DNA of 64,000 nucleotides from Gaiellaceae bacterium (GCA_021323315.1 JAJTCQ010000001.1:37936-101935), one strand, 5' to 3'; numbered from the stretch's first letter, positions 11,309 to 20,619 are shown. The notes: generated from the sequence alone by a model not told the origin. Translations and numbers: made by a program.

Positions 11309-11420
11309 GCGACGTTCGCCTGCGGCGAACGTTCACGGCGGAAACCATGTTTCGCCCGTGTGCCCCCTTCTTCCGGGTCTGGGGAACCTCCTGCTTCCGC
11401 ACACTCCTCCACGCTCACGA
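11309..11420 (+). other. Structured intergenic element, copy A
   Basis: Hairpins ACGTTCGCC-tgc-GGCGAACGT, GGCGgAAAC-cat-GTTTCGCC, GTGTGC(11358-11363)/GCACAC(11399-11404) enclosing GGAA/TTCC; resembles 54978-55087. Confidence 0.5.
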
Positions 11421-11438
11421 GGTAACCGAGGTTGCATC

Positions 11439-12386
11439 GTGAGCTACACCTGGTCGGAGCTCCTCGGCGACGATGTCGCGCCCGAGGACGAGTCCGAGCG
11501 CACCGGGTTCTTCGCGCGGATGCGGGAGTCCCTCGCGAAGAGTCGGACGGCGCTCACCGCCGAGCTCGCGTCCGCCGGCTTCGACTCGTCGGACGACGAG
11601 GCGTGGGAGCGGCTCGAGGAGGCGTTGATCCGAAGCGACGTCGGCGTCCCCGCGACAGCCGAGCTCGTGCGAAGACTCGAGGCCAGGGGCCTCACCGGTG
11701 GCCTCGAGGACGCGCTCGCCGCCGAGGTCGAGGAGCTCTTCGGCGACCCGCCGACCCTGGCCGTCGCTGCGAGGCCGAGCGTGATTCTCGTCGTGGGCGT
11801 CAACGGCACCGGGAAGACGACGACGATCGGGAAGCTGGCGCGCAAGCTCCACGAGCACGGGCGGTCGGTGCTCGTCGGCGCGGCGGACACCTTTCGCGCG
11901 GCCGCCGAGGAGCAGCTCGAGATCTGGGCAGAGCGGGCCGGCGCGGACTTCGTCGGCGCGCCACGCGGCGCGGATCCCGCGGCCGTCGCCTTCGACGCCG
12001 TCGAGGCGGCGCGGGCTCGAGGACGTGACGTGGCCATCATCGACACCGCCGGCAGGCTCCATACCCAGACGAACCTCATGGCCGAGCTCGAGAAGGTGCG
12101 GCGCGTGATCGAGGGCCGCGTCGAGGGCGCGCCGCACGAGACGCTGCTCGTCGTCGACGCGACCACGGGTCAGAACGGCCTCCAGCAGGCGAAGCTCTTC
12201 GGTGCGACGGCAAGCGTTACCGGGGTCGCGCTGACGAAGCTCGACGGCAGCGCCCGCGGAGGCGTCGCAATCGCAATCGCGGTCGAGCTGGGTCTTCCCG
12301 TGAAGCTCGTCGGTGTCGGCGAGGGCGTCGAGGATCTCCGCCCGTTCGACGCCGGCGACTACGCACGCGCCCTGATCTCCCCCTGA
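11439..12386 (+). CDS. ftsY: Signal recognition particle receptor FtsY
   Basis: VVGVNGTGKTTTIGKLA, DTFRAAAEEQL, DTAGRLHTQTNLMAEL, TKLDGSARGG. Confidence 0.96.
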   Translation: MSYTWSELLGDDVAPEDESERTGFFARMRESLAKSRTALTAELASAGFDSSDDEAWERLEEALIRSDVGVPATAELVRRLEARGLTGGLEDALAAEVEELFGDPPTLAVAARPSVILVVGVNGTGKTTTIGKLARKLHEHGRSVLVGAADTFRAAAEEQLEIWAERAGADFVGAPRGADPAAVAFDAVEAARARGRDVAIIDTAGRLHTQTNLMAELEKVRRVIEGRVEGAPHETLLVVDATTGQNGLQQAKLFGATASVTGVALTKLDGSARGGVAIAIAVELGLPVKLVGVGEGVEDLRPFDAGDYARALISP

Positions 12387-12495
12387 GTAGGGGTGCGAAT
12401 CACTGGATCGAGGGCTTTAGGTCGTTGCGTGGGTCCTCGGGCCCGCGTACGCTGTGGCACGACCCCTGAGGCGACGCAGGCAAGGAGGACTGGGA

Positions 12496-12840
12496 ATGGC
12501 TGTCGCGATGACCATGCACTGGCCAGGCTTGACCTCGGACCAGTACGACGCCGTCATGGCCAAGCTCGGCCTCGACGCGAACCCGCCTGCTGGCTCGGTG
12601 CTGCATGCGGCGACGGAGACGGATCACGGGATCGACGTGTTCGAACTGTGGCAGACCGAGCAGGCGTTCAACAGCTTCCTCGAGCAGAGGATGCTGCCGG
12701 TCGTGAGCGAACTCGGCATCACGGGCGAGCCCTCCATCACGATCGTTCCGCTGCACAACCTGTACGCCGCCGATCCCGACATGATCGACCGGATCGGCGC
12801 TGTCTCGCTTCCGGCTGCGGTCGCGAGCTGGGCTAGCTAA
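12496..12840 (+). CDS. Conserved hypothetical protein, possibly ferredoxin-like alpha/beta-barrel
   Basis: MAVAMTMHWPGLTSDQYDAVMAKLGLD...; SD-like aaggagg upstream. Confidence 0.6.
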   Translation: MAVAMTMHWPGLTSDQYDAVMAKLGLDANPPAGSVLHAATETDHGIDVFELWQTEQAFNSFLEQRMLPVVSELGITGEPSITIVPLHNLYAADPDMIDRIGAVSLPAAVASWAS

Positions 12841-12892: not shown

Positions 12893-13093
12893 GTGACCGA
12901 GCGCCGCGAAACGACCATCGGATTCGGCCCAGTCGGGCTCGCCGGATGGGGGCTCCTCGTGCTCGGTGTGCTGCTTCGGCGGCGCTTCGTGGCGCTCCTG
13001 GGCCTCGGCGCTGTGGTCGCAGACGTCACCGTCGCCGAGCTCGGCGGCTTCAAAGCGGTGAACGAGAGTCGCAGCGACGCCTCAGTCGCCTGA
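12893..13093 (+). CDS. Small membrane protein
   Basis: Two hydrophobic stretches; TAGGAT box 6 nt upstream of the GTG start. Confidence 0.5.
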   Translation: MTERRETTIGFGPVGLAGWGLLVLGVLLRRRFVALLGLGAVVADVTVAELGGFKAVNESRSDASVA

Positions 13094-13110: not shown

Positions 13111-13350
13111 CTAGCTACGTGGCGTCGCACCGATCGAGAACGTCTTGACGTTCTGGTTCTCGATCTCCACTTGCATGAAGGTGATGTCGAACCACTTCGG
13201 TCCGGTCCCTTCTTCCCCGCCGGTTACGAATCTCGACTCGTTGACGATCTGCTCGGCGAGGCCCTTCAGCGCCTCGTCCACCGTTGCGGGTCGTCCCGTG
13301 GATTCGCCCACGTAGACTGTCTTCTCGCCGCCTGGTCTTGGCTCTCCCAT
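13111..13350 (-). CDS. Dodecin-like small protein (copy 1)
   Basis: VDEALKGLAEQIVNE...KWFDITFMQVEIENQNVKTFSIGATP fits the dodecin pattern (helix, then WFEVxxxRGxIxxGxVxxYxVxLKVG). Confidence 0.6.
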   Translation of the reverse strand: MGEPRPGGEKTVYVGESTGRPATVDEALKGLAEQIVNESRFVTGGEEGTGPKWFDITFMQVEIENQNVKTFSIGATPRS

Positions 13351-13384
13351 CGTCCCAGCCTCCAGTCTTGGTGACGCGGGGATC

Positions 13385-16069
13385 CTACGGCTTCGCCTCG
13401 ATCAACACAATGTCGCGAAGGGCACGCCCTTCCCGCTCGAGCTCGTCGAACGCAATGCGACCGAGCCGCGCCTCGAGCACAGGCGTGAACCGCTCGAGGA
13501 CAGGGAGCTCGAACTCATCGGGTTCATCCGTGCCGCGAGCAGCCGTCGCGGCGCCCACCAGGCGCGCCGCCGTCTCCGGCGATCCGCTTTCGGCAGCTGC
13601 GCCGGCGAGAACGACAAGGCAGCGGGCACGTGAACGATCGTCCTCGAGATCGGTGTACAACGTCAGGCTCTCGCGCGCTCTGCTCGCGGCGGCCTCGGCC
13701 GCGCCCTCCAGGAGGTCGAGCTCGGCGAGCATGAGTTGCGCAGCCGCAACGTAGGGCACCTCGCCGAGCTCCCGAGCTTGAGAGAGGGAATCCGCGAATG
13801 CCTCGCGAGCGCGGCGGAAGTCGTGCGCGTGGAACGCGGCGACGCCGAGGTTGTAGATCGCGTCCGCTACGAGGAGCGGGTCGCCGAACCGGATACGGAG
13901 CTGCACTGCTTGCTCGTACTGCGCGAGCGCGAGGTGGTGCTCGCCGCGAGCTGAGTAGACATCCCCGAGCACGGTGGCGGCGGCCGATCGAGCTCGATCG
14001 TCGTCCAGGCGGCTCGCGGCAGCAACGGCGTCGTGTGCGTACTGCTGTGCGACGTCGATGTCGCCTTGCATCCGCGAGAAGAAGCTGAGATACGACAGAG
14101 CGAGGATCTCGTCGCGAGTCTGACCTTCTGCCCGATACACCTCGCGCGCCTCGTCGAACATGCTTCGCGCGGCGCCCCAGTCGCTCTGGGCAGCGGCCTG
14201 GAGGGCCGCCGTTCGAAGGGCCGCGGCCCGCACGTCGGCAGGCGCTCCGTCTGCGAGTGACAGCCCGAGAGACAGCCACCGGCGGGCGTCGCTGACATGC
14301 GCGTGTGCGCGCCAGAACCGCTCGAGTGCCGAGATCGCGCGTAGAGCGTCCTCGGCCCGACCCGAGGCGAGGAGCCAGTCGAGGGCCGCCCCCAAGTTGT
14401 CGAACTCAACCTCGAGCCTGTCGAGCCACGCCGCCTGCTCCATGCCGGCGAGCTCGCGCTCTGCTTCGAGGGCGAGTGCGAGGAACTGCTCGGCATGGCG
14501 CTGCCGCAGCTCGTCGAGTCGCCCCTCGGACGCTTCGTGCTCGAGGGCGTACTCGCGGACAGTTCTCAGCATCGAGAGCCGGAGCTCACCGTCCGCCGAC
14601 TCGGCTCGAATCAGGCTCCACCCGACGAGCGCTTCGAGATCGCGCAGGAACTCGGGGCCCGTGTCTGCGATCTTGCGCGCATCGTCGAGCGAACCGCTGT
14701 CCGCGAAGACGGCCAGCGTCCCGGCCAGTGCGCGCTGGCTCGGGCTCAGCCGCTGGTAGCTCCAGTCGATTGCGGCGCGCAGCGTCCGCTGTCGCTCGGG
14801 CAGGTCGACCGGGCCCTCCATCTCGAGTGCGAGCCCCTCGCCGAGTGCGCGCAGGATCTCGGTCGGCGGCAGGAGCGCGAGGCGGGCTGCGACGAGCTCG
14901 ATCGCGAGCGGCAGGCCGTCGAGCTTCCGGCAGATCTCGTGGACGGACGCGAGAGCGCTCTCTTGCAGCAGGACGCCGCGTGCTGCGGCCAGCTCGATGA
15001 AGAGCGTCGTGGCGTCCTCGATCGACAGCGGCTCGAGCGGCAGAACGCGCTCTGCCGAGAGCCGAAGCGGCGTGCGGCTCGTGGCCAGGATCTGGAGGTC
15101 GGGCAGGCGATGGAGCAGCTCGGCGACGACGGGTGCGACGGTGGGCAGGTGCTCGAGGTTGTCGAGGTAAAGCAGCGCGCCGGAGCCGTCCATGCTGTCG
15201 GCAACCGATTCGAGGACGGTCCGGCCGCCCGACTCGCGCGCGCCGATCGCGCGTGCGATCGCGCTTGGAACGAGCTCGGCATCCAAGACGGGGGCGAGCC
15301 CGACGAGGTGCACTGGCCGATCGAGCGCTGCCCGCGCAGCCACTTCGAGTGCAAGCCGGCTCTTCCCGGCTCCACCTGGGCCGGTGATCGTTGCGAGGCG
15401 CACCTCCGGCGACTCGAGGAGAGCCTCCACGCGAGCAAGGGCGTCCGCGCGCCCGACGAGGCGATGGTGCAAAGCCGGCAGGCTCGTCGCCGTCAGGGTT
15501 TTGAGTGGCGGGAACTCCTCGCGAAGCCCAGGCACGAGGATTTGGAACGCCTGCACAGCAGCCGGAACGTCCTTCAGCCGGTGATGTCCGAGGGGCCGAA
15601 ACGCCGCGCCGGGAAGGGGCTCGGCGCCTGCCATGTCCTTCGTTGCTCGCGTCACGACGATCTGCTCGCCGTGCGCCGAGGCGCACACTCGGGCAGCGAC
15701 GACGACGTCCATCCCGACGTAACCCTCCGGGCCGAGCTCCGGCTCCCCGGTGTGGATGCCGATGCGCAGGCGGTGCGCCTCCTCGTCGGGCCAAGGCTCC
15801 TCCGCGAGCGAGCGCTGGATCGAGGTGGCGGCCGCCACGGCGTCGCTGGCTCGCGAGAACGCGAGGAATACACCGTCGCCGGCCCAGTCGACCTCGACGC
15901 CGCCGTTGTCGGCTGCGGCCATGCGCACGAGCTCGCGCATCCGTGCCCGCGCTGGGCCGAACCGCTTGCCCAGGAGGTGCAGGAGCCGCGTCGACCCCTC
16001 GACGTCGGCGAAGAGGAGCGTCACCGTGCCGGCCGGAAGCCGGCTTGGGGCGTCGTCCGACCCGTTCAC
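13385..16069 (-). CDS. Class III nucleotide cyclase-STAND ATPase-TPR protein (copy 1)
   Basis: TVTLLFADVEGSTRLLHLLG and WAGDGVFLAF cyclase motifs; GPGGAGKSRLALEVA Walker A; GLPLAIELVAARL STAND motif; TPR-like C-terminus. Confidence 0.88.
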   Translation of the reverse strand: MNGSDDAPSRLPAGTVTLLFADVEGSTRLLHLLGKRFGPARARMRELVRMAAADNGGVEVDWAGDGVFLAFSRASDAVAAATSIQRSLAEEPWPDEEAHRLRIGIHTGEPELGPEGYVGMDVVVAARVCASAHGEQIVVTRATKDMAGAEPLPGAAFRPLGHHRLKDVPAAVQAFQILVPGLREEFPPLKTLTATSLPALHHRLVGRADALARVEALLESPEVRLATITGPGGAGKSRLALEVAARAALDRPVHLVGLAPVLDAELVPSAIARAIGARESGGRTVLESVADSMDGSGALLYLDNLEHLPTVAPVVAELLHRLPDLQILATSRTPLRLSAERVLPLEPLSIEDATTLFIELAAARGVLLQESALASVHEICRKLDGLPLAIELVAARLALLPPTEILRALGEGLALEMEGPVDLPERQRTLRAAIDWSYQRLSPSQRALAGTLAVFADSGSLDDARKIADTGPEFLRDLEALVGWSLIRAESADGELRLSMLRTVREYALEHEASEGRLDELRQRHAEQFLALALEAERELAGMEQAAWLDRLEVEFDNLGAALDWLLASGRAEDALRAISALERFWRAHAHVSDARRWLSLGLSLADGAPADVRAAALRTAALQAAAQSDWGAARSMFDEAREVYRAEGQTRDEILALSYLSFFSRMQGDIDVAQQYAHDAVAAASRLDDDRARSAAATVLGDVYSARGEHHLALAQYEQAVQLRIRFGDPLLVADAIYNLGVAAFHAHDFRRAREAFADSLSQARELGEVPYVAAAQLMLAELDLLEGAAEAAASRARESLTLYTDLEDDRSRARCLVVLAGAAAESGSPETAARLVGAATAARGTDEPDEFELPVLERFTPVLEARLGRIAFDELEREGRALRDIVLIEAKP

Positions 16070-16114
16070 GCAAGAAGTCTAGGAGTCGAGGGCGTCGGCG
16101 TACACTGTCCGGCC

Positions 16115-16180
16115 GCGTTCGACACGCTCTCCGACAAGCCGCAGGCGACGCTCGGCGGTCTCGGCGGGAACGGCGAGTAG
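16115..16180 (+). pseudogene. Truncated 5' remnant of ffh from tandem duplication
   Basis: FDTLSDKPQATLGGLGGNGE* versus ffh FDTLSDKLQATLGGLGRSGR; start codon GTG changed to GCG; same upstream gcgtacactgtccggcc. Confidence 0.85.
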
Positions 16181-16274
16181 GGCTAGTCGGTCTTGCGCGG
16201 AAGCGCGTCTAGCACGTGCGTCCGATTCACTCGAGGCGATGAAGGAAGCGCCTGATGCGAAGGAGCCTTCCGGC

Positions 16275-16520
16275 TCAACCGCCCGGCGTGATGATGACCT
16301 TGTATGCGGTTGGACCCGGGTTGCCGACCCGTACCTGGATCCGACTCACCTCGAAGTACGTGTTACGCAGATCCGGCGCGTCGTAGTACGCCCGATACGC
16401 CGCGTCGGCGATGGCTCTCGCGAGCCCCGTGTCGATCGACACCTGTTCGGCCGAATCTATTTCGACCTCGCCCTCGAAGGCGTGGATCCGGTGCCCCCGA
16501 CCGTCGTCCGCTTCGGACAT
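16275..16520 (-). CDS. Dodecin-like small protein (copy 2)
   Basis: IDTGLARAIADAAYRAYYDAPDLRNTYFEVSRIQVRVGNPGPTAYKVIITPG; same position relative to cyclase copy 2 as copy 1. Confidence 0.55.
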   Translation of the reverse strand: MSEADDGRGHRIHAFEGEVEIDSAEQVSIDTGLARAIADAAYRAYYDAPDLRNTYFEVSRIQVRVGNPGPTAYKVIITPGG

Positions 16521-16548
16521 AGCTACTCCTTTCGTTGGACCGACGAGC

Positions 16549-19251
16549 CTACTTCGTTACCCGCTCGCCAACAAGCACGCCGGCCGTGGTCTCGGTACCG
16601 GTCGAGCGTCCCTCAGACCTCAGTTCCAAATAGCGTCGCTCCCCGAGCGCATCGATCACCACCGAGAGGAAGCGCTCCTCGATCGCGGGTTCCGCGTACT
16701 CGAGCGGACTATCGCCACGAAGTCTGTCCGCCGCGCCCCAGAGGCGCGCGGCGTCCACGGGCCTGCCTGTCGCCGCCGCATATCCGCCTAGGGCGCAGAG
16801 ACATTCCGCCATGCTGCGGTCGTCGGCCAGCGCGGTGTAGATCGAGAGGCTCTCGTCCAGGCGCGGATGTGCAGGCGCAACATCGCCTCGAAGCAGGTCG
16901 ATCGCCCCCAACATACAGAGCGCGGCGGCCCTGTACAGCGCGTCTCCGAGCTCGCCAGCGAGCTCGAGGGTCGCCATCAGCGCTTCAGTACTGCGGACGT
17001 AGTCGCCGGCGGCGAAGGTGGACACACCGACGTGGTAGATCGAATCCATCACGAGAGTCGCGTCGCCAAGCGATCGACGAAGAGCAAGTGCCTCGTCGGA
17101 GAACGCGACCGCTTGTTCGAAGTCGCCGCGGATCCGCGAGACGTCGGCGAGAATCGCGAGCACGCCCGATGTCGCTCGCGGTTCGTCGAGCTCGCGAGCG
17201 ATGATCAGCGCTTCGCTGCTCAGGCTTGAGGCAAGGTCCTTGTCACCTCGCCGAAGAGCAATGAACGCAAGCTCGGATAGCGCAAAAGCGATGTCTCGTC
17301 TGCGGCCCTGCGCACGGAAGAGGACGAGCGCATCCTGCAGCACGGGAACGGCCGCCTGCCAGTCACTCTGGGCAGCCGCCTGGCGCGCTGATGCCCAGAG
17401 CGCGTCCGCTCGCACGTCTGGCGCAAGGTTCGTCCCAAGCTCGAGGCCGATCGTCAGCCAACGTCGCGCCTCGCCAACGTGTGCGTGTGCGCGCCAGAAG
17501 CGTTCGAGCGCCGAGATTGCACGAAGAACGTCCTCGGCCCGCGCGGAAGCGAGCAGCCAGTCGAGCGCGGCTCTCAGGTTGTCGAACTCCCGCTCGAGGC
17601 GCTCCAGCCACTGAGCCTGCTCCGTGCCGGCAAGGTGGCCCTCGGCCTCGAGGGCGAGTGCGAGGAAACGCTCGGCGTGGCCGCGCTGCAGCTCCTCGAG
17701 ATGTCCTTCCGCCTCAGCGTTGCCCAGCGCGTGCTCCCGAACGGTCTCGAGCATCGACAACCGGACCTCCCCGTCGGTCGAGTCGCTGCGAATGAGGCTC
17801 CAGCCGACGAGCGCCTCGAGATCCGACAGGAATGCTGGGCCAGCCTCCGCCACCGCGCGCGCATCGTCGAGGGTGGCGCTGTCGGCGAACACCGCGAGCG
17901 CGCCGTGCAGGTCGCGCTGGCCCGGGCTCAGGCGCTGGTAGCTCCAGTCGATGGCCGCTCGGAGCGTCCGCTGGCGCTCGGGAAGATCGACCGGGCCCTC
18001 CATTTCGAGCGCGAGGCCCTCGCCCAGCGCGCGCAGGATCTCGGACGGAGGGAGCACCGCGAGCCGGGCCGCGACCAGCTCGATCGCGAGCGGGAGCCCG
18101 TCCAGTCGCCGGCAGATCTCGTGGACGGACGCAAGCGCGTCGTCCTGCAGGAGGACACCGCGGGCTGCCGCAAGCTCGACGAAGAGCGTCGTCGCGTCGT
18201 CGAGGGCGAGCGGCTCCAGAGGCAGCACACGCTCGGTCGACAGGCGAAGCGGCGTGCGGCTCGTGGCGAGGACCTGGAGGTCGGGCACGCGATCGAGCAG
18301 CTCCGTGACCTGGGCTGCGACGGTCGGGAGGTGCTCGAGGTTGTCGAGGTAGAGCAGCGCGCCGGCCCCGCCCAGGTTGTCGGCGATCGACTCGATCACA
18401 CTACGGCTGCCGGACTCTCGCGCTCCGATCGCGCGGGCGATCGCGCCGGGCACCAGCTCGGGATCCAGGATGGGGGCGAGGCCGACGAGATATACGGCTC
18501 GATCGAGTGCCGCCCGCGCGGCCACCTCGAGCGCGAGCCTGCTCTTGCCGGCTCCTCCCGGGCCCGTGATCGTCGCGAGGCGCACCTCCGGCGATTCGAG
18601 GAGAGCCTCCACGCGAGCGAGGGCGTCCGCGCGCCCGACGAGGCGATGATGCAAGGCCGGCAGGCTCGTCGCCGTCAGGGTCTTGAGGGGCGGGAAATCC
18701 ACGCGAAGCCCAGGCCCGAGGAGCTGGAACGCCTGCACAGCGGCCGGGACGTCCTTCAACCGGTGGCGGCCGAGGGGGCGAAACGCGGCACCGGGAAGGG
18801 GCTCGGCGCCGGCCATGTCCCTGGTCGTGCGGGTGACGACGATCTGCTCGCCGTGCGCCGAGGCGCACACCCGGGCAGCGATGACGACGTCCATCCCGGT
18901 GTAGCCGTCCGGAGCGAGGTCGGGCTCGCCGGTGTGGATCCCGATGCGCAGGCGGTGCGCCTCGTCGTCGGGCCACGGCTCCTCCGCCAGCGCCCGCTGG
19001 ATCTGCGCGGCCGCTGCAACGGCGTTTGTCGCTCTCGAGAACGCGAGGAACACGCCGTCGCCGGCCCAGTCCACCTCGGCACCGTCGTGGTCGGCGGCTG
19101 CCTTGCGGACGTGCTCCCGCATGCGGGCACGAGCAGGCGCGAAACGCTTCCCGAGGAGATGCAGCAGCCGCGTCGACCCTTCGACGTCTGCGAAGAAGAG
19201 CGTCACCGTGCCCGAGGGAAGTGGGCGTCGTGCGTCGTCCGACCCGGTCAC
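16549..19251 (-). CDS. Class III nucleotide cyclase-STAND ATPase-TPR protein (copy 2)
   Basis: Near-identical to copy 1 through the cyclase and ATPase domains, diverged in the TPR region. Confidence 0.88.
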   Translation of the reverse strand: MTGSDDARRPLPSGTVTLFFADVEGSTRLLHLLGKRFAPARARMREHVRKAAADHDGAEVDWAGDGVFLAFSRATNAVAAAAQIQRALAEEPWPDDEAHRLRIGIHTGEPDLAPDGYTGMDVVIAARVCASAHGEQIVVTRTTRDMAGAEPLPGAAFRPLGRHRLKDVPAAVQAFQLLGPGLRVDFPPLKTLTATSLPALHHRLVGRADALARVEALLESPEVRLATITGPGGAGKSRLALEVAARAALDRAVYLVGLAPILDPELVPGAIARAIGARESGSRSVIESIADNLGGAGALLYLDNLEHLPTVAAQVTELLDRVPDLQVLATSRTPLRLSTERVLPLEPLALDDATTLFVELAAARGVLLQDDALASVHEICRRLDGLPLAIELVAARLAVLPPSEILRALGEGLALEMEGPVDLPERQRTLRAAIDWSYQRLSPGQRDLHGALAVFADSATLDDARAVAEAGPAFLSDLEALVGWSLIRSDSTDGEVRLSMLETVREHALGNAEAEGHLEELQRGHAERFLALALEAEGHLAGTEQAQWLERLEREFDNLRAALDWLLASARAEDVLRAISALERFWRAHAHVGEARRWLTIGLELGTNLAPDVRADALWASARQAAAQSDWQAAVPVLQDALVLFRAQGRRRDIAFALSELAFIALRRGDKDLASSLSSEALIIARELDEPRATSGVLAILADVSRIRGDFEQAVAFSDEALALRRSLGDATLVMDSIYHVGVSTFAAGDYVRSTEALMATLELAGELGDALYRAAALCMLGAIDLLRGDVAPAHPRLDESLSIYTALADDRSMAECLCALGGYAAATGRPVDAARLWGAADRLRGDSPLEYAEPAIEERFLSVVIDALGERRYLELRSEGRSTGTETTAGVLVGERVTK

Positions 19252-19296
19252 GCGAGAAGTCTAGGAGTCGAAACGCTCGGCGTACACTGTCCGGCC

Positions 19297-20619
19297 GTGT
19301 TCGACACGCTCTCCGACAAGCTGCAGGCCACGCTCGGCGGCCTCGGTCGCAGCGGCCGCCTGGACGAGGAGGCCGTCTCCAGCGCGATGCGCGAGATCCG
19401 CGTCGCGCTCCTGGAGGCCGACGTCAACCTGGAGGTCGCACGGGACTTCACGGCCACGGTGAAGGAGCGCGCGCTCGGCCAGGATGTCCTCAAGAGCCTG
19501 ACCCCCGGCCAGCAGGTCGTGAAGATCGTGCACGAGGAGCTGACCGCGCTCATGGGCTCGGGCGACTCGCGGCTCGCATTCGGCAGGCCGCCCACCGTGA
19601 TCCTCCTCGCCGGACTGCAGGGCTCCGGCAAGACGACAGCGGCCGCGAAGCTCGCGCTGCTCCTGCGCAAGGACGGAAAGCGCCCGGGTCTCGTCGCGTG
19701 CGACCTGCAGCGTCCTGCCGCAGTCGACCAGCTCGAGCAGCTCGGCAAGCAGATCCAGATTCCCGTCTACGCGCTCGATCGCGGCGATCCCGTCAAGGCC
19801 GCGCAGTTCGGGCTCGACAGCGCCCGCAAGGACGGCCTCGACGTGGTGATCCTGGACACCGCCGGCCGTCTCCATGTCGACGTGGAGCTGATGGACGAGC
19901 TCGAGCGGGTTGCCGCCGCGACGAAGCCGACCAACGTGCTCCTCGTGCTCGACGCGATGACGGGCCAGGAGGCCGTGAACGTCGCCATCGCGTTCCAGGA
20001 GCGGGTCGCGTTCGACGGCGTCGTCCTCACCAAGCTCGACGGCGACGCGCGCGGTGGGGCTGCGCTCTCCGTGCGAGCCGTCACCGGTCGCCCCGTCAAG
20101 CTCGTCTCCGTCGGGGAGAAGCTCGACCAGCTCGAGTACTTCCATCCCGACCGCATGGCGTCGCGCATCCTCGGGATGGGCGACGTCCTCACGCTCATCG
20201 AGAAGGCCGAAGCCGCGGTCGAGCTGGACGAGCAGGCGGAGATGGAGAAGCGCATCCGTGCGGGCGAGTTCACGTTCGACGACTTCCTCGCGAGCTACCG
20301 GATGATCCGCCGCATGGGGCCGCTTCAGGGAGTCCTCAAGATGATCCCCGGCATGGGCAAGCAGCTGCAGGGGCTCGACCTCGACGAGAAGCAGCTCGCC
20401 CGCGTCGAGGCGATCGTGCTCTCGATGACGCCTCAGGAGCGCCGCATGCCGCACGTCATCTCGACCCAGCGCCGGCGGCGCATCGCGGCGGGCAGCGGCA
20501 CGTCCCTCGACGAGGTGAACAAGTTGATGGCCGCCCGCAAGCAGATGGCGAAGATGATGAAGCAGATGGGGAAGGGGAAGCTGCCTGCCCTTCCCGGCGT
20601 GCAGCCTCCCCGGCGCTAG
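19297..20619 (+). CDS. ffh: Signal recognition particle protein Ffh
   Basis: GLQGSGKTTAAAKLA, DLQRPAAVDQLEQL, TKLDGDARGGAALS, M-domain GKGKLPALPG. Confidence 0.97.
   Translation: MFDTLSDKLQATLGGLGRSGRLDEEAVSSAMREIRVALLEADVNLEVARDFTATVKERALGQDVLKSLTPGQQVVKIVHEELTALMGSGDSRLAFGRPPTVILLAGLQGSGKTTAAAKLALLLRKDGKRPGLVACDLQRPAAVDQLEQLGKQIQIPVYALDRGDPVKAAQFGLDSARKDGLDVVILDTAGRLHVDVELMDELERVAAATKPTNVLLVLDAMTGQEAVNVAIAFQERVAFDGVVLTKLDGDARGGAALSVRAVTGRPVKLVSVGEKLDQLEYFHPDRMASRILGMGDVLTLIEKAEAAVELDEQAEMEKRIRAGEFTFDDFLASYRMIRRMGPLQGVLKMIPGMGKQLQGLDLDEKQLARVEAIVLSMTPQERRMPHVISTQRRRRIAAGSGTSLDEVNKLMAARKQMAKMMKQMGKGKLPALPGVQPPRR

Follow-up and report, generated by a model that had tools for sequence, protein, structure and literature searches.

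A dodecin-like small protein family encoded directly behind cyclase-like/STAND ATPase/TPR switch genes in the ftsY-ffh interval of one Thermoleophilia family

In a stretch of 64,000 nucleotides from Gaiellaceae bacterium (GCA_021323315.1 JAJTCQ010000001.1:37936-101935; hereafter the window), derived from a metagenome-assembled genome that is 53% complete, the interval between ftsY and ffh holds two tandem modules on the minus strand, each consisting of a gene for a switch protein of ~900 amino acids, with a cyclase-like domain, a STAND (signal transduction ATPases with numerous domains) region and tetratricopeptide repeats (TPR), and a small gene for a protein of ~80 amino acids. We report that the small proteins very probably share descent with dodecins, as judged from sequence profiles and predicted models, and that genes of this small family stand behind switch genes of two non-orthologous types. 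The original prediction, made from the window sequence, had described two consecutive minus-strand copies of the same order; the four open reading frames (ORFs) were present as described and the modules lie in the interval it gave, but the end of that interval, 19365, falls inside ffh, which starts near 19273. From the stop of the large gene to the start of the small gene there are 34 nucleotides in module 1 and 28 in module 2, and purine-rich Shine-Dalgarno-like stretches precede both small genes; the two genes of a module are probably co-expressed.

Searched singly, the window small proteins gave nothing useful in Pfam, NCBIfam, PHROGs, PADLOC, PDB or plasmids. Since single-sequence searches were unproductive, the dodecin identity was detected only via relatives, and the common origin of the two proteins likewise became visible only through relatives, because the pair is only 18% identical. 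A hidden Markov model (HMM) of the first six small proteins, run against 103 genomes of the family, retrieved the small family and then dodecins in four genomes (E 0.02-0.09), which stood among other weak matches. A profile of 24 small proteins in which no dodecin was included (A2) was compared with the whole PDB, and dodecins came out on top (E 9.6e-6), and nearly all of the top 12 entries were dodecins. Alignment of A2 with the bona fide dodecins of the family by hhalign gave 94% probability and a score of 38.7, in comparison to a maximum of 14.5 among 100 column shuffles and 9.3 for the reversed control. The Pfam Dodecin model (PF07311) was matched by 7 of the 24 members, weakly and in no case significantly (best E 0.017), and other families by one member each. 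In 399 genomes of the class, the matches of A2 outside the family had E-values of 1e-4 or weaker, and the four that were inspected are dodecins. AlphaFold2 (AF2) models of both window small proteins showed a beta-alpha-beta-beta arrangement (pLDDT 86 for small protein 2 and 79 for small protein 1), for which Foldseek placed dodecins at ranks 1-21 and 1-23 with a probability of 1.0. Trypco1 (PF19493), considered as a similar domain, was rejected, as 0 of 41 relatives matched it and Pfam gave no match to it in A2 members; the hits L002, L007 and L008 lay inside unrelated genes and were discarded. Together, these data bear out the dodecin pattern that had been read from the window, with dodecins as the best match of the family profile and of both predicted structures.

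We then considered the genomic linkage of the two genes. The census of ftsY-ffh comprised 51 complete intervals from one Thermoleophilia family, and the small gene was present in 17 of the 21 intervals with a switch gene and in 0 of the 30 without one, counts that are not phylogenetically independent. In the class genomes A2 gave 28 matches at E<1e-7 (26 genomes), all within this family, and in the 25 genomes with informative contigs every small gene lies just downstream of a cyclase-ATPase-TPR gene; four genomes that were not used in the profile (G165, G273, G306, G309) showed the same linkage. In genus g1, where relatives of the large protein are 47-64% identical, the small gene directly follows the switch gene wherever visible: a small ORF stands directly behind the large gene in G063, G033, G051, G075 and G279, and in strongly diverged form in G291. 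The one-contig genus member G009 has neither gene between ftsY and ffh. Wherever visible, the pair sits between ftsY and ffh on the opposite strand. Genera other than g1 have a different cyclase-AAA_16-TPR protein in this slot, with a small ORF of ~55-90 amino acids immediately behind it. The two switch types are non-orthologous, since they reach at most 60 bits against each other vs over 400 between the window switch and some paralogues elsewhere that lack the partner, and the small partners of both types form one family. Among ~90 loci of cyclase-STAND paralogues elsewhere that were scanned for the small family, none was found besides the already known G033 locus. The proposed two-gene linkage thus held across relatives, and it is likely that switch and small gene are functionally coupled. 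Tandem duplication of the small gene alone was seen in G273 (L217 175-1698) and in G299 (L125 42-652), where the two copies stand at a contig edge.

Both large proteins match the Guanylate_cyc, NB-ARC/AAA and TPR models of Pfam, contain GPGGAGKS, and have the architecture of a STAND protein with a TPR sensor, i.e., a P-loop NOD region (NB-ARC/AAA) followed by TPR. When the class III cyclase part was aligned to Ma1120, the metal Asp and the Arg were retained in the window copies, but the Lys and the Asn were each replaced by Asp, with EVDWAGDG and GMDVVxAAR in place of the cyclase K and N motifs; the cyclase motifs are intact in most CyAAA-type proteins (the other switch type) of sister genera. 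The cyclase domain of the window genus therefore looks catalytically degenerate, and of the cyclase-STAND-TPR protein originally described the domains and the GPGGAGKS motif stood, but key cyclase catalytic residues are absent. With PADLOC, the window proteins gave weak TPR and PycC (cyclase part) matches only (E 2e-3 to 5e-6) and no strong match to any known anti-phage defence signature protein. An N-terminal SARP/BTAD DNA-binding part was gained in G063 and G259, one for each non-orthologous switch type. The window large protein also showed weak NCBIfam matches to AfsR, to TPR proteins associated with RiPPs (ribosomally synthesised and post-translationally modified peptides) and to kinase/cyclase proteins.

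The history of the two modules can be read in part from the window. Positions 16042-16164 and 19224-19346 are 91% identical and include the first ffh codons, so that the tandem duplication of the unit took in the start of ffh as well. The large proteins are 71% identical overall, with 84-85% in the cyclase and ATPase parts and 54% in the TPR part; in blocks of 50 amino acids, identity is 74-100% as far as residue 500, 64-86% between there and residue 600, and 35-58% in the remainder. At the level of DNA the two small genes give no alignment, despite the 91% identical 5' flank. In small protein (53% identity) and TPR part (63%), module 2 comes closest to G063, although in their N-terminal parts the window copies resemble each other more. 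These comparisons hint that sensor and small gene were exchanged as one cassette, or that the N-terminal part was converted.

Table 1. Features of the ftsY-ffh interval in the window, and switch genes of relatives that carry a SARP/BTAD part
Feature	Position	Strand	Basis
ftsY, conserved locus flank	11358..12386	+	query; found beside locus in relatives
Small gene 1, dodecin-like (SHS2-fold) protein, 79 amino acids	13111..13350	-	ORF, Shine-Dalgarno-like stretch, profile and fold matches to dodecins
Copy 1 cyclase-like/STAND ATPase/TPR protein, 894 amino acids	13385..16069	-	Pfam Guanylate_cyc, NB-ARC/AAA_22, TPR_12
Copy 1 TPR sensor region, approx. residues 501-841; differs from copy 2 from ~residue 600	13547..14569	-	
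Copy 1 STAND (NB-ARC-type) ATPase region, approx. residues 195-500	14570..15487	-	Pfam
Copy 1 cyclase-like domain, approx. residues 1-180, catalytic motifs apparently degenerate	15530..16069	-	
Remnant of ffh 5' end, from tandem duplication	16095..16164	+	DNA identity
Small gene 2, dodecin-like (SHS2-fold) protein, 81 amino acids	16275..16520	-	ORF, Shine-Dalgarno-like stretch, AF2, Foldseek
Copy 2 cyclase-like/STAND ATPase/TPR protein, 900 amino acids	16549..19251	-	Pfam
Copy 2 TPR sensor region, approx. residues 501-845	16717..17751	-	Pfam, block comparison
Copy 2 STAND ATPase region, approx. residues 195-500	17752..18669	-	Pfam
Copy 2 cyclase-like domain, approx. residues 13-180, catalytic motifs apparently degenerate	18712..19215	-	
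ffh, conserved locus flank	19273..20619	+	
SARP/BTAD-bearing switch gene	L039 8763-12230		
SARP/BTAD-bearing switch gene	L127 728-4474		

The interval showed some further features (Table 1). The starts of large gene 2 and ffh are divergent and ~20 nucleotides apart (19251-19273), which may mean that one of the two starts is wrongly assigned or that the promoters overlap the genes. The gap between ftsY and module 1 contains short plus-strand ORFs at 12454-12840 and 12893-13093, which are kept in genus relatives (L125, L004), and the product of the latter reads as a small hydrophobic protein. In two sister loci, G257 (L138 2113-3692) and G227 (L155 1928-3392), a nitroreductase-family gene, presumably SagB-like, and a RiPP-leader-like ORF lie behind the switch gene.

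Known TPR-sensor STAND proteins are ADP-bound monomers at rest that are opened by an inducer (PMC6468293, PMC10427625), and in MalT, a protein of this type, partners such as MalY maintain the inactive state (PMC10427625, PMC6468293). Given that the small protein is co-encoded, fast-evolving and tracks the switch, a dedicated ligand or lock of the adjacent TPR sensor would fit, and we hold the chances of this reading to be about even; our preference for it over an effector or target role is of the same middling strength. The small protein would bind to the TPR sensor, either directly or in oligomeric form, and the state of the ATPase would be set by how much of the small protein is present, by its oligomeric state or by a metabolite bound to it; when triggered, the ATPase would leave its ADP-bound monomeric resting form and then assemble, with an output via the N-terminal domain, be it degenerate cyclase-like or, in two relatives, extended by SARP/BTAD. 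A possible, more tentative version gives an oligomer of diverged dodecins the part of a multivalent platform or a metabolite-loaded key, which would nucleate or lock assembly of the STAND protein, with sensor and key passing between loci as one cassette. The template modelling (TM) scores of the small proteins to dodecins are ~0.45-0.66 and the Foldseek E-values ~1e-2; with these modest scores, and with flavin-site residues mostly lost, we term the proteins dodecin-like and not dodecins. Several observations weigh against the ligand or lock picture. Some members, of 55-60 amino acids, leave hardly any space for strand 1, which makes a dodecamer doubtful. The similarities of TPR part and small protein across 8 modules were not significantly correlated (Spearman 0.19, p 0.41), so that cassette exchange stays a hint. 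Three switch loci have other genes, or nothing recognised, instead of the small gene, and, as all instances come from one slot of one family, the association may have a single origin.

Such a single slot would also be expected if an ancestral dodecin stood beside ffh, switch genes were inserted nearby and the proximity was merely inherited. Bona fide dodecins (PF07311) were present in 21 of the 51 intervals, and 11 of the 51 complete intervals have a true dodecin without any switch gene. We nevertheless regard inherited proximity as unlikely, since the small gene is never found in the switch-less intervals, switch and small gene are jointly missing in G009, the small gene persists beside two unrelated switch types, and in 7 of the 51 intervals a true dodecin, often the next gene, coexists with switch and small gene. 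The same 7 loci led us to reject the small gene as a positional replacement of the ffh-side dodecin. It is plausible that the small family stems from duplication of the true dodecin of the slot, for which 50 alignable residues are too few for proof. In many genomes of the family the true dodecin is divergent from ffh, often within ~100 nucleotides (L152 1798-2043; L145 6636-7199). The dodecin relationship itself lends some appeal to the cofactor supply contained in the original prediction, read here as a small oligomer that keeps flavin in store and would supply or present it to the switch, and the flavin-stacking Trp position is indeed W in window small protein 1, G051 and one G299 copy, and Y in window small protein 2 and G063. 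This is W in just 3 of 24 members, however, the flavin-site Gln position is Q in 0 of 24, and the neighbouring bona fide dodecins have ITGADV, with G at the Trp position, where flavin dodecins have the Trp motif; flavin supply was thus not borne out and is highly improbable. Calcium dodecin likewise does without the flavin-binding Trp, so that the missing Trp and Gln do not exclude membership in the dodecin family.

A stronger competitor to a ligand or lock, though still rather doubtful, places the small protein at the output end: the switch would activate the gene behind it, and the product of that gene would act on metabolism, for example by cofactor binding or scaffolding. A precedent exists in AfsR, a regulator of SARP-NOD-TPR architecture that targets the small gene afsS (PMC10936776), and both the weak AfsR match of the window large protein and the N-terminal SARP/BTAD domains in G063 and G259 agree with it. 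Most switch genes at these loci, on the other hand, have no DNA-binding domain, the gaps of ~10-60 nucleotides suggest one transcript and not a separate target promoter, and in the window copies the small protein and the TPR region of the switch beside it diverge together. That the small protein is unrelated to dodecins, being another SHS2-type domain, a Trypco-type domain or a peptide precursor, draws on the modest structural scores and on the leader-like ORF and nitroreductase-family gene that occupy the same place in two sister loci; with a profile that matches PDB dodecins at E 1e-5, shuffles scoring far lower, no Trypco1 match among the relatives and no other Pfam family recurring, we hold this to be very remote.

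Our search of the open-access literature turned up no report that connects dodecins with STAND, cyclase or TPR regulators, and our data suggest that dodecin-type proteins have been recruited into signalling. If true, this would give a signalling role to dodecins, so far regarded as cofactor stores, and the small proteins would define an unnamed family next to PF07311 that is missed by current models. To our knowledge, only a minority of bacterial STAND proteins have a known natural ligand; each switch described here has beside it a candidate partner that is small and easy to express, so that the ligand, lock and target readings are directly testable with two proteins. In comparison with dodecins (PF07311; T. 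thermophilus 2cz8/2ux9, M. tuberculosis Rv1498A, calcium dodecin Rv0379), the small proteins are of similar length, have the same strand-helix-strand-strand order, as predicted here, and show profile similarity spanning the helix, strand 2 and strand 3. Unlike dodecins, they have a variable or nearly absent strand 1, an NP motif between strands 2 and 3, a shorter strand 3 ending in an often Pro-Gly-rich tail and no conserved flavin-site Trp or Gln, and they are tied to a switch gene. MalT with MalY, MalK and Aes resembles the window switch in its STAND ATPase and TPR sensor, and its control lies with separate partner proteins; it differs in that these partners are unrelated enzymes or transporter parts, and in a LuxR-type output without a cyclase domain. 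The AfsR-afsS pair of Streptomyces likewise joins a large NOD/TPR regulator to a small gene, and SARP is shared by two relatives, whereas most switches here are cyclase-like without SARP; we know of no relation of AfsS to dodecins. Actinobacterial cyclase-NB-ARC-TPR proteins, with many paralogues in the same genomes, have the same domain order, but for those paralogues, at other places in the genomes, no small partner is recognisable. Both halves of the system are of known kinds, and it is their fixed combination, together with the diverged dodecin family, that appears new as far as this is testable.

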